From Gemmatimonadetes bacterium bin94 (GTDB taxonomy: Bacteria; Gemmatimonadota; Gemmatimonadetes; Longimicrobiales; Gaopeijiaceae): 56,604 bases of DNA. Below are positions 1 through 10,279 of the stretch, piece by piece; positions within the stretch are counted from its first letter, which is position 1, and each line of letters opens with the position of its first letter. The position numbers and the translations under genes are program-made. The notes under the pieces are model-generated. The model had not been told where the DNA came from. It searched no databases and saw only the letters and a program-made list of their open reading frames with translations. The stretch is from positions 1 to 56,604 of the forward strand of contig MPNE01000027.1 in the NCBI GenBank assembly GCA_002238865.1. Direction: 5' to 3'.

Positions 1-335
1 CGTGGTGGGGTGGGCGAAGAGGGGGCCGTCGGGGGTGATCGGGACGAACAAGGCGGACGCTGCAGGCACGGTGGCGCTGATGGGCGAGGACCGGGAAGGG
101 GGGGGCTTCGCGGGGGGGCGGAGGGGGGGGGGGGGCGGGGCGGGGGCCGGGGGGGGCGGGGGGCTGGCGGGCCCTGTTGCGCGAACGAGGCGTCCACTGG
201 GTCGACAACGAGGGTTGGGAGCGGCTCGACGCCCACGAGACCGCCCGCGGCAAGGTTCAGGGGCGGCCCCGGGTGAAGCTGTGCTCGATCGCGGAGATGC
301 TGGAGGCTGCGAGGGGGCCCGCGACCGTCGCCTGA
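1..335 (+). CDS. Ferredoxin-NADP+ reductase (FprA-like), C-terminal part, frameshifted
   Basis: This is the 3' end of an FAD/NADP-dependent ferredoxin reductase whose 5' part lies before the window. Two pieces are seen in different frames. Positions 2-100 read GWAKRGPSGVIGTNKADA, the NADP-domain signature of the FprA/adrenodoxin-reductase family. Positions 171-335 read as its C-terminus (GRPRVKL followed by a short helix) and end at TGA 333-335. The two frames are joined by a G-only or nearly G-only tract around 98-165 that makes no protein sense, so the frameshift is probably a sequencing or assembly artefact at a contig end, although a real pseudogene is not excluded. The family transfers electrons between NADPH and ferredoxin in the cytoplasm. 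The gene converges on feoB. Confidence 0.7.
98..165. repeat. G-rich low-complexity tract
   Basis: The + strand here is almost entirely G, with runs of 5 to 13 G broken by single C or A. It lies inside the reductase gene and separates its two reading frames. Such runs are typical of two-colour sequencing artefacts at contig ends. A genuine G-quadruplex-forming tract is possible but would destroy the gene. Confidence 0.8.
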
Positions 336-364: not shown

Positions 365-2644
365 TCAGCCCACCCCGGCAGCCAGCCGCCACACCTGCGC
401 CACCAGGAAGCAGACCACAAAGCCCATCGCCAGCGGCAGCAACGCCGACACGGTCGTCCAGCGGCCGCTCTTCGTTTCCTTGTAGATGGTGTAGATGGTC
501 GTCGAACAGGGGTTATGCAGCAAGCTGAACAGCATGAGGTTCACGCCGGTCAGCAACGTCCATCCACCGGCATGGAGCAATCCCGCCATCTCCCCCGCCG
601 AATCTCTCTCGAACATGACGCCCGCGCCGTCGCCCAGCTCGGGCATGCCCAGCGTCATGACCGTCAGCATGAGCACGGTAGGGATCACGATCTCGTTGGC
701 CGGGATCGCGATGATGTAGGCGAGCAGGACCACCCCGTTCAGGCCAAGCAGGATTGCGAACGGGTCCAGAAGATCGATGCCGTGCTGGGCGATCGAGATC
801 CCGCCGACGGTGATGTTCGAGATCAGCCAGATGACCGCGCCGGCGGGGATCGCGAAGAGGACCGCGCGCCAGAGGATGATCAGCGTGCGATCGATGACCG
901 AGGTGTACAGCGTCTGCAGGACGCGCGGGGGGCGGTAGGGGGGAAGCTCCAGCGAGAATGTCGTGGCTTCGCCCTTGAGCACCGTATTGGAGAGGCCCCA
1001 CGATGTCAGGAACATGAAGAAGATGCCCAGGAGCGCGATTGTGACGACCGCGCCCGCCGAGACCAGCCCCGCGAGGTGGGGCGGGACCAGCGCCCCGATG
1101 AAGATGGTCGCGATCAGGATCTGGGTCGGCCACCGCCCGTTGCAGAGCGAGAAGTTGTTGGTGATCACCGCGATGAGGCGCTCCCTGGGGCTGTCGATCA
1201 CACGCGTGGCAACGACGCCGGCCGCGTTGCACCCGAAGCCCATGCTCATCGTGAGCGCCTGCTTCCCGTGGGCGCCGGCCCGGCGGAAGAGCGAATCCAG
1301 GTTGAAGGCCACGCGCGGCAGGTAGCCGAAGTCCTCCAGCAGCGTGAAGAGCGGGAAGAAGATGGCCATCGGCGGTAGCATCACGCTGACGACCCACGCC
1401 GTCGCCAGATAGACACCGTCGAAGAGGAACCCGCTAAGCCACCAGGGCATTCGGGCCCATTCACCGAAGCCGAGCAGGACGGGGTGAAGGTTGTCGATGA
1501 GAAGGGTCGCCAGCATGGCCGAAGGGACGTTGGCTCCGGCGATCGTAAGCCAGAAGACGACCGCGAGGATCATGAGCATGAGCGGGAAACCGAAAACGCG
1601 GCTGGTGAGCCACCGGTCGAGCTTACGATCCAGTTCGCCTCCCTCCTTGACCGCGGCGCGGCGGACGCTCAAGCCCGCGATTCGGGCCGCTTCCCCGTAG
1701 AGATTCGCGGCAACCGCATCGTGAAAGCCCGGGCGCAGGTTCCATCGCTGGCGGGTGGCGGCGTCCAGGATCCGGCCGCGGCCCCGTGTCACCTCGATGG
1801 CCGTGGCGGGACCGGGCGGTGCCTCTCCCGCATCACCGCCGATATCCGGGGAGCCAGGGGCACCCTTCCCCTCGAGGTCACCGATCTCGCCCGTGCGCAC
1901 CGCTTCCACCACCCGTTCGTCGGCGTTGAGCAGTCTGAGCGCCACCCAATTGGCGTTCGGGAGCTCCGGAAACTCCTCCACGATGAGGGGCACGATGGCG
2001 TCGATCGCCTCCTCGACCTCTGGCGGATGGGATCCGATGCGGCGCGGGTTCGTGATCCGTGTCCCCGCGGCGACTTCGGCGGCAGCCTTCAGGAGAGCGT
2101 CGACGCCCTCTCCCTGGCGGGCGACGGTCGGCACCACGGGTACGCCCAGTTCCCTTTCGAGTCGCTTTGCGTCCACCGACACGCCGTGCCGGCGGGCTTC
2201 GTCCACGAGATTGAGACAGACGACCACCCGATCGGTGATCTCGAGAATCTGGAGAACCAGATTCAGGTTGCGCTCCAGGCGCATCGCGTCGACGACGACG
2301 ACCGTGACGTCCGGCTGGCCGAACAGGATGAAGTCGCGAGCCACCTCCTCGTCCGCACTTCCCGCCTGCAGCGAATACGTGCCGGGAAGGTCGACGACCT
2401 TGACCCGGCGCCCGTCGTGCAGGAACGCGCCCTCGGCCCTGGCAACCGTCTTTCCGGGCCAGTTGCCGGTGTGCTGCCGCAGCCCCGTCAGCGCATTGAA
2501 CACGGTGGTCTTGCCCACGTTGGGGTTTCCGGCGAGGGCGATGAGGTGGTCCCACTTGTGGGGGCTCAACCCCAGGCGCACCAGGTTGCGGGCACGGCGC
2601 GTGGATGGTCCGGCGGGGGTCCGGGCGGTGGCGGTGGCGGTCAT
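365..2644 (-). CDS. feoB: Ferrous iron transport protein B (FeoB)
   Basis: FeoB imports Fe2+ across the inner membrane and is gated by an N-terminal G domain. The 759-residue product is of normal length. The G1 motif GNPNVGKTT lies at residues 39-47, G3 DLPG at 85-88 and G4 NLVD at 145-148. A Gly/Pro-rich loop follows around residues 255-285. The C-terminal half is the polytopic membrane domain with two gate-like segments and the GFGCNAAG and CNGRWP motifs typical of the FeoB branch carrying CNGRFP. The ATG at 2644 overlaps the stop of the upstream regulator gene (ATGA), so the two are translationally coupled. The shared promoter carries a DtxR-type operator, so iron-dependent repression is expected. 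Confidence 0.97.
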
Positions 2645-3672
2645 GACGCCTCTCGCACATATGTGTCGTCGACCTGAATGAACGCGGCTTGCTCTTTGCG
2701 CAGCGCGATCAGGGCACCCCGGATGTCATACGCGACGGGATCTCCGCCCGCGCTTCGCATCCGCGCGTGCACGACGGTGCCCGGGACTACCCCGAGGTCC
2801 AGCAGCCTGCGGCGGGCCGGCCCCCGGCACAGCGTCGAAATCCCGACGACCGTGGCGAAATCACCGGGCTCGACGTCGGCAAGGGTGCGGGACCAACGGG
2901 GGTCCACGACGTCCTCCGCGGGCTCCACCGTGACGTTGCGCGCCAGCGACCCGGGGATTTCGTACCGCTTCTCCCCGGTGCGGAAGTGCACGCGACCGGC
3001 CTCCCCCTCGAGGCGTTCCACCGGCGTCATGAGGCCGATCCCGAGAGCGATCAGATCCCGGTAGATCTCCGCGGGCTCGTCCTCCAGGTGGGTGACCAGG
3101 GCCCTTTCTCCCGGCTTGAGCGACGAAAGCGGCATTCCCCGGCGGTCGGGAACGTCTCCGGACGCCGTCGGGATCGGGTCGCCGTGAGGGTCATAGACGG
3201 GGTGTCCCAACGCCGCCGCCAACTCCTCGGTCTCGGACGCCGAAAGGGTGTGTTCGCGCTTCTCGGCCTGGTCATGCCAGTCCTCGGGCGGCGTACCCGT
3301 CCGGTCGGCAAGGAACCGCTCCCAGAGACGGTGTGTGCGCACGATCCTCAGGGCCTGTTCGCGGCCCGGCCCGGTCAGATCGAAGACTTCGTCCCGGGCG
3401 GTTACGAGGTTTCTCTCCTCCAGCCGTTGAAGGAGCCGGATGGCCTGGTGCCGCGAGACCTGCGAACCACCCGCCACGCTGTCCGCGGTCGCGGGGAGTC
3501 GGTCGTACTCGAGCTTGTAGAGCTGTTTGAGCACGTCTTCGAGGCGGACCCGGTCAGTCAGCATCCAATGGCGCCTGAGAAGCGCGACAATCCCCCTCGA
3601 AGGCCACAGGGCGATGGCGGTGACGGCCGAAAGGGCGGCAAATGCCGCGAGCGCCAGACCTGGATCGGGCAT
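2641..3672 (-). CDS. Membrane-anchored DtxR-family regulator fused to FeoA domains
   Basis: The protein has 343 residues. Domain order is an N-terminal hydrophobic helix (about residues 5-25), a DtxR/MntR winged helix (about 35-95), a DtxR dimerisation and metal-binding region with the family pattern HRLWE, AEKREH and [13 protein letters not shown] (about 100-170), and then two SH3-like FeoA domains (about 180-250 and 265-343). DtxR proteins repress metal-uptake genes when loaded with Fe2+ or Mn2+, and FeoA assists FeoB. I chose ATG 3672, preceded by AGGAA, because an upstream TTG at 3732 lies inside the operator. The gene overlaps feoB by 4 bp. The transmembrane helix suggests the regulator sits at the membrane next to FeoB, which is inference. 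It could alternatively respond to manganese. Confidence 0.88.
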
Positions 3673-3723
3673 CGTCGTTGGGGTTCCTGGCCGTGAGGAT
3701 GAAGGCAACAATCGGTCGTAAAG

Positions 3724-3739
3724 TTTAGGCAAGCCTAAA
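3724..3739 (-). promoter_or_regulatory. DtxR/MntR-type operator of the feo operon
   Basis: TTTAGGC-AA-GCCTAAA is a perfect 7-bp inverted repeat with a 2-bp centre and closely matches the TTAGGNNNNCCTAA core of DtxR/IdeR/MntR boxes. It lies 52 bp upstream of the regulator's ATG, and on the minus strand it directly follows an AT-rich TAATAT that could be the -10 element. The likely role is metal-dependent autorepression of the regulator-feoB operon. Confidence 0.85.
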
Positions 3740-9143: not shown

Positions 9144-9854
9144 TCACCCCAGCTCCCAGAATGCCCCGCCGAGCCCCGCCTCGCGAAGGGATGCTTGCCT
9201 TGCAGCCCCGGTGGCTGGCCGCCAGTCGTCGCTGAACCTGCCCCCGTACCAGTGGTGGCTCAGCCCTCCCAGCACATCGACCGGCACCGTCGCGCCCCGG
9301 TCGTCACCGTGTTCGATCGCCCACGCCCTGGCATCCCCCTCCGACCGGAAGGCCACGATGTTGCGTCACGTGAAGCCGATGTCGTCCCAGAAGTCGCGCG
9401 CAGGAACCGGCAACCTGACGACGGAGCCCTCGGGTCCGACCCTGCGGCCCACGTTCGTCAAGTCGAAGCGCACCCCCGAGTGCGGACACACGGTTGGGGT
9501 GCGGCCGTCGGTACCGAGGATGAGAGGTATCGCGATCGCATCCCAGGCGCAGTTGGCCCAGTAGTCTCCGACCGGCGTCTCGACCCGGTATGGCGTAGGA
9601 ACCGCCGAGAAGGGGTGGGCCATCCAGACCTCGCCAGCCTGGTCCAGGGCGAGCACGTGAGCGTCGGCGAGGAACCGCAGGGCCCGGTCGACTTCGACGG
9701 CCTCGACCCCCAACTCTTTTCGCAGCCCGGCTCGGCCTGGAACCACACCCGATTCCCTGATCTTCCGGTAAAGGTGCCCGCGCAGACGCCAGGCGACGGC
9801 GTCCGATCCGCATGCCAACGCCGGGTCACGCCGTCCTGCCTGGCCGCGGGTCAT
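9144..9854 (-). CDS. Candidate selenoprotein: alkylmercury lyase (MerB) homologue with in-frame UGA
   Basis: MerB cleaves carbon-mercury bonds using Cys, Asp and Cys. This 236-residue product has an N-terminal winged-helix-like region (about 20-90), then W-A-N-C-A-W-D at 99-105, matching E. coli MerB W-C96-A-L-D99, then a C-P-H-S-G turn. An in-frame TGA at 9366-9368 is residue 163, inside D-I-G-F-T-U-R-N-I-V-A-F, where MerB has catalytic C159. The same frame continues for 73 homologous residues (F-R-S-E, A-W-A-I-E-H, H-H-W-Y-G-G-R-F) to TGA 9144-9146. A hairpin follows the UGA. I therefore read UGA as selenocysteine. A point mutation of TGC or a sequencing error is the alternative. ATG 9854 overlaps the DoxX stop (ATGA) and has GGAGGGG upstream. 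The true substrate may be another organometal. Confidence 0.75.
9332..9360 (-). promoter_or_regulatory. SECIS-like hairpin after the UGA of the MerB homologue
   Basis: Read on the minus strand, the hairpin starts 5 nt after the UGA. The outer stem is CATC/GATG, followed by an internal loop and then an upper stem CCU-[bulged U]-CC paired with GG-AGG, closed by the tetraloop GGUC at 9343-9346. The E. coli fdhF SECIS, from memory, has the same GGUC loop and a bulged U with the loop 18 nt after UGA; here the distance is 19 nt. The loop would be the SelB contact. This is hand folding, not an energy calculation. Confidence 0.6.
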
Positions 9855-10279
9855 CCTGGTCCCCTCCTCCGCCCAAGCCAGGCGTCCAGACTCAGCCGAT
9901 CCTCCTCGTACAGCACCAGCACCACGACCAGCAGCAGCGCACGCGGGAACACATGGCCGTCGAACGCGTACAGCGGCTCGGCGAGCAGATGGCCGAAGGT
10001 CACCAGCACCAGGACGCCTCCCAGCGCGTACGCCGCCTGCAGGCGCTTCCACCCCGCGAGCATCAGTGCACCGCCCGCCAGTTCGACGAAGGGGACGGCG
10101 ACTCCGGTCGCCCAGAGCGACCACTCGGGCAAAAAGGTGTCGGCGTAGGGCCCCACGAAGAGGTTTCTCGCGTGCGCGACCGCGCCCAGGGTGAAGACCT
10201 TCCAGACCCCGGCCATGAAGAAGATCAGGCCCAGGACGACCCGTGCAACGAACGCCGCCCAACACTTTGGCGCGATCAA
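9851..10279 (-). CDS. DoxX / MauE-like integral membrane protein
   Basis: The 142-residue product has four predicted membrane helices (about 10-28, 55-75, 83-102 and 115-135) and a short charged C-terminus. It belongs to the DoxX/MauE group. MauE-type proteins help deliver disulfides or reducing power to periplasmic redox enzymes, and DoxX-type proteins are redox-associated membrane subunits. The TTG start at 10279 is supported by GAGGAG about 8 nt upstream, and there is no ATG in frame. The stop overlaps the MerB-homologue ATG, so the two form an operon. The pairing suggests a membrane partner for the lyase or for export of its product, which is inference. Confidence 0.8.
   Translation of the reverse strand: MIAPKCWAAFVARVVLGLIFFMAGVWKVFTLGAVAHARNLFVGPYADTFLPEWSLWATGVAVPFVELAGGALMLAGWKRLQAAYALGGVLVLVTFGHLLAEPLYAFDGHVFPRALLLVVVLVLYEEDRLSLDAWLGRRRGPG

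Follow-up and report, generated by a model that had tools for sequence, protein, structure and literature searches.

The stretch of DNA analyzed here (the window: all 56,604 nucleotides of contig MPNE01000027.1, from Gemmatimonadetes bacterium bin94) contains a minus-strand gene resembling the organomercurial lyase MerB, with an in-frame UGA where MerB has its second catalytic cysteine. The locus raises the question of whether this codon ends a broken gene or is read as selenocysteine (Sec), and, if the latter, what a MerB-like protein with selenium at this position might do.

The reading frame and its MerB columns

With TGA read as U, the frame runs from an ATG at 9854 to a terminal TGA at 9146-9144, which is the next in-frame stop after the single internal TGA (9368-9366), giving a 236-residue MerB-fold product with Sec163 in the context ...GFT-U-RNIVAFRS... 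(Table 1). This translation confirms what the initial annotation had described, an in-frame UGA at residue 163 with the frame open to a proper stop. Its claim of conserved sequence behind the UGA holds as well: within the genus, amino-acid identity downstream of the TGA is 55-71% over 66-67 residues, and the nucleotide changes there are concentrated at third codon positions. The start codon is overlapped by the stop of a DoxX/MauE-like gene, and the two genes are likely translationally coupled through this overlap; we saw the DoxX/MauE-like gene beside the MerB-like gene only within the genus.

Table 1. Features of the MerB-like locus (window coordinates)
Feature	Position	Strand	Basis or remark
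DoxX/MauE-like membrane protein gene	9851..10279	-	stop overlaps MerB-like start as ATGA
Ribosome-binding-like site GGAGGAGGGG ahead of MerB-like ATG	9861..9870	-	sequence
MerB-like selenoprotein gene	9144..9854	-	translation with TGA=U; Pfam MerB 7.6e-23; AlphaFold model matches MerB structures
Cys102 codon, MerB Cys96 column	9549..9551	-	profile alignment
Asp105 codon, MerB Asp99 column	9540..9542	-	profile alignment
UGA codon taken as Sec163, MerB Cys159 column	9366..9368	-	conserved in ~68 genomes; profile alignment
SECIS-type hairpin	9336..9353	-	codon and covariation evidence; spacing compared with E. coli fdhF

The Pfam MerB model (PF03243) matches residues 82-204, spanning the TGA, with 81.3 bits against a cut-off of 27. 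The only PDB matches to the family profile are MerB structures, the best by sequence being MerB2 5c17 (2.9e-19). An AlphaFold model, built from six sequences and with a mean pLDDT of 72, has the same 5c17 as its best Foldseek match (2e-10), with MerB next; VIA structure comparison of the model gave Z 15.9 over 188 residues to 5c17 and Z 12-13 to MerB. The protein has two domains, a winged-helix-like one at the N-terminus and the MerB catalytic one. The conserved catalytic residues of MerB are Cys96, Asp99 and Cys159 (PMC8261052, PMC4525700). In the profile alignment to solved MerB structures, C102 and D105, both within the motif WANCAWDA, fall in the Cys96 and Asp99 columns and U163 falls in the Cys159 column, so that Cys, Asp and Sec stand in place of the canonical triad. 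Both the MerB-like fold and this arrangement of residues had been proposed in the initial annotation, and both are borne out. The NCBIfam MerB equivalog cut-offs are not reached (37.7 vs 193 bits; 31.8 vs 200).

Conservation of the UGA, its hairpin and the selenium machinery

We found UGA at the Cys159 column in about 68 genomes, from the window's own phylum and from Chloroflexota, in members down to ~35% identity with the window protein. Within the own phylum, 50 genomes have UGA (49 plus the window's own, a count that includes G119, whose partial homologue bears two TGAs), against 10 with Cys at that column. Among 400 sampled Chloroflexota genomes, UGA members occur in 18 and Cys forms in a few. 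The initial annotation had expected U to align with Cys in relatives and UGA to recur there in other genomes, and this is what we see: the non-UGA homologues of both phyla carry Cys. Thr precedes U in each of the 51 UGA members counted. In the G119 homologue the hairpin Phe codon has also become TGC; this gene may be decaying.

The source genome (4.4 Mb, 97.5% complete) encodes selA (488 bits), selB (307 bits), selD (388 bits) and a tRNA-Sec with anticodon UCA (79.7 bits), the machinery on which the selenocysteine reading depends. Its selD has an in-frame TGA of its own (GAG-U-ACK), and SelD is probably itself a selenoprotein. Across genomes, selA tracks the UGA form: it is present in 42 of 43 UGA genomes (G400, from Chloroflexota, is counted among the 43, and for two of the 42 there are selA fragments only) versus three of 10 Cys genomes (Fisher 6e-6, uncorrected for shared ancestry; the own phylum and Chloroflexota are separate instances). 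Further Chloroflexota show the same pattern, with selA in 17 of 17 UGA genomes vs none of five Cys genomes. The association is broken by those three Cys genomes that carry selA and by the UGA-bearing G397, in whose fragmented assembly (81% complete, 740 contigs) no selA was found.

Directly behind the UGA lies a hairpin with G and U in its loop, as expected of a SECIS. Its core in the window is CUUCC-GGUC-GGAGG at 9351-9338, with the GGUC loop at 9346-9343, that is, at +20..23 after the UGA, against +19..22 in E. coli fdhF (K-12 genome); by position and loop it is a bacterial SECIS. The family form CUUCC-GGUC-GGA(A/G)G, 15-30 bases past the UGA, is near-invariant in UGA members, and since the hairpin sequence is kept the residues Phe-Arg-Ser-Glu are forced there. 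The codons are fixed as well: the hairpin Arg is CGG in 51 of 51 UGA members, against a 36% share of CGG among the Arg codons of these genes; Ser, where present, is TCG in 48 of 48 (45% usual). The Cys forms lack the hairpin and this codon bias, and neither residues nor codons are kept. The outer pairs vary, one being U-A in 32 members and C-G in 12, the other C-G in 18, U-A in six and G-C in five; counting cells in which both sides had changed, none of 500 shuffles reached this covariation, and it exceeds that of any slid register. Simple minimum-energy folding of the 50 bases past the UGA failed to tell the Sec forms (mean -16.4 kcal/mol) from the Cys forms (mean -15.3 kcal/mol); the separation comes from the hairpin sequence and its covariation. 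When the source genome was searched with the hairpin model, no further strong match turned up, and a scan of the window at Rfam gathering thresholds gave no match.

A possible objection is that UGA 163 is a nonsense mutation, a sequencing error or the mark of a decaying pseudogene, given that the standard reading frame does end at the internal TGA. However, the same codon followed by conserved protein recurs across two phyla, the hairpin is limited to UGA forms, the Sec machinery is present, and it is implausible that so many assemblies share one error. The explanation is ruled out by the conservation and the hairpin together with the link to selA, and we give it a negligible chance. Slightly less remote, though still very improbable, is that the codon is read as another residue, either by a special tRNA for Cys or Trp or by plain readthrough. 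Species of tRNA-Cys that read UGA exist, and Cys is indeed what the non-UGA homologues carry here; against this stand the presence of tRNA-Sec, selA, selB and selD, the tracking of the UGA form by selA and the SECIS-type hairpin conserved past the UGA, and no homologue that we read has Trp at this column. We conclude that UGA 163 is very probably decoded as Sec, and that the MerB-like UGA family is a genuine, largely undescribed selenoprotein family, because the same arrangement recurs in so many genomes of two phyla.

Evolution of the Sec and Cys forms

In the tree, one branch sets off the UGA forms and one sets off the own-phylum Cys forms; with the root placed at the midpoint, the own-phylum Cys clade is drawn among the UGA forms, beside two UGA members (97/91 support). 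Because of this nesting in the midpoint-rooted tree, Sec looks older than the own-phylum Cys clade. The members of that clade (L093-L101), mostly from genomes without selA, also have Cys at the Asp99 column (CAWC...C), as found in all nine members long enough for both columns. The Cys forms of Chloroflexota retain Asp, which rules out a general coupling of the Sec-to-Cys change with an Asp-to-Cys change; from these alignments, the latter looks peculiar to the own-phylum Cys clade.

A distant branch is made up of sequences from two Chloroflexota genomes. One of these, G537, has three paralogues (L171, L173 and L174), in all of which UGA occupies the Cys96 as well as the Cys159 column and Asp or Glu the Asp99 column (motif AQ-U-GF[ED]...U-[SA]GM.LFRSE); the standard hairpin stands behind the second UGA and not behind the first. 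The other, G497 (L172), has Cys...Glu...Sec in the triad columns. Taking the two phyla together, we lean toward a standalone MerB-fold selenoenzyme family outside mer operons in which one metal-holding Cys is Sec, and in which the side branch of three paralogues in one Chloroflexota genome would have both as Sec, forming a diselenolate site for soft organometals.

Proposed function and relation to known MerB proteins

Our reading of the window protein as a whole, which we regard as fairly likely, is a MerB-fold selenoenzyme with a Cys102-Asp105-Sec163 triad that would most likely act as an organomercurial or soft-organometal lyase. Under this proposal, tRNA-Sec and SelB would insert Sec at UGA 163, guided by the hairpin 15-30 bases downstream; C102 as thiolate and Sec163 as selenolate would bind the organomercurial or other soft organometal; Asp105 would assist proton transfer to carbon, and the hydrocarbon would depart. 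The metal would presumably be retained by S and Se until passed on to low-molecular thiols or selenols. Substrate and chemistry are here extrapolated from the triad columns and the fold, by analogy with MerB, and a shared fold and triad are no proof of substrate; cleavage of C-Hg or another C-metal bond has, in our estimate, a somewhat better than even chance, and the organometal may be one other than mercury.

The main alternative accepts the selenoprotein and denies the lyase: the protein would be a binder or trap for soft metals (Hg, Cu, Ag), or a metal or redox sensor acting through the winged-helix domain. This has the genomic context in its favor. Among the near neighbors examined (from crude gene calls) we saw no mer genes beside the MerB-like gene, and no MerA scored above the cut-off in the source genome, the best candidate being without the C-terminal cysteine pair; both absences speak against a classical mercury-resistance role. 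The non-lyase reading also draws on the Ser that the closest solved structure, MerB2 5c17, has at the Asp99 column, and on the one nested own-phylum clade with Cys there. Against it, every single-UGA member of the main family that we examined retains Asp105, consistent with protonolysis, and the winged-helix domain alone is no evidence for a sensor, because a winged-helix-like domain is also found at the N-terminus of MerB. We consider a non-lyase role the less likely of the two, and retain the lyase as the preferred reading.

Gene neighbors offer no shortcut to function. They vary by lineage (DoxX-like, S58 peptidase, glyoxalase, acetyltransferase, TRAP transporter and others), and with neighbors differing between lineages and mer genes absent, again from crude calls of near neighbors, we ruled out an operon-based assignment. 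Elsewhere in the window (365-3732, minus strand), a feoB-like gene adjoins a gene with DtxR-type iron-dependent repressor and FeoA domains.

MerB is the model enzyme for methylmercury breakage, and natural selenium at the mercury ligand makes it testable whether a selenolate accelerates the cleavage of Hg-C bonds or acts as a trap for Hg. A Sec-containing MerB-like family also ties the handling of mercury or organometals by uncultured bacteria to selenium supply. Automatic annotation likely truncates these genes at the UGA, as we infer, and merB surveys would therefore miss them.

The initial annotation knew of no described Sec-containing MerB, which was too strong, for the literature already counts SaoL and a 'MerB2' among predicted selenoproteins. 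SaoL (NF040728), a 'MerB-like organometallic lyase', is like the window family MerB-related and Sec-containing by prediction (PMC13188914); PMC9312934 lists it under the name 'Alkylmercury lyase MerB-like protein'. SaoL is set apart by its listed motif, CU vs TU in the window family, and by model score: the window protein reaches 23.7 bits where the cut-off is 140 (the model has 159 positions), and all 13 A1 members match weakly (best E 3.5e-12). PMC7435645 names an 'Organic mercuric lyase MerB2' as a predicted selenoprotein, with neither sequence nor motif in the text; going by its name it would be a MerB relative with Sec, and it could be SaoL or even the window family. In literature outside the SaoL-defining papers (Haft and Gwadz 2023; Haft and Tolstoy 2025), our search found no paper describing a TU-type MerB-like family.

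Among characterized structures, MerB of R831b (PDB 3f0o/3f0p) shares with the window protein its fold, domain order and Cys96 and Asp99 columns, and C122 of the window protein likewise lies near the Cys117 column. The window protein differs in having Sec for Cys159, a C-terminus ~30 residues longer, no mer operon or MerA found here, and scores far under the equivalog cut-offs. MerB2 (5c17) is closest to the window family in both sequence and structure, and departs from it in the Ser noted above and in having Cys at the Cys159 column, where the window family has Sec.
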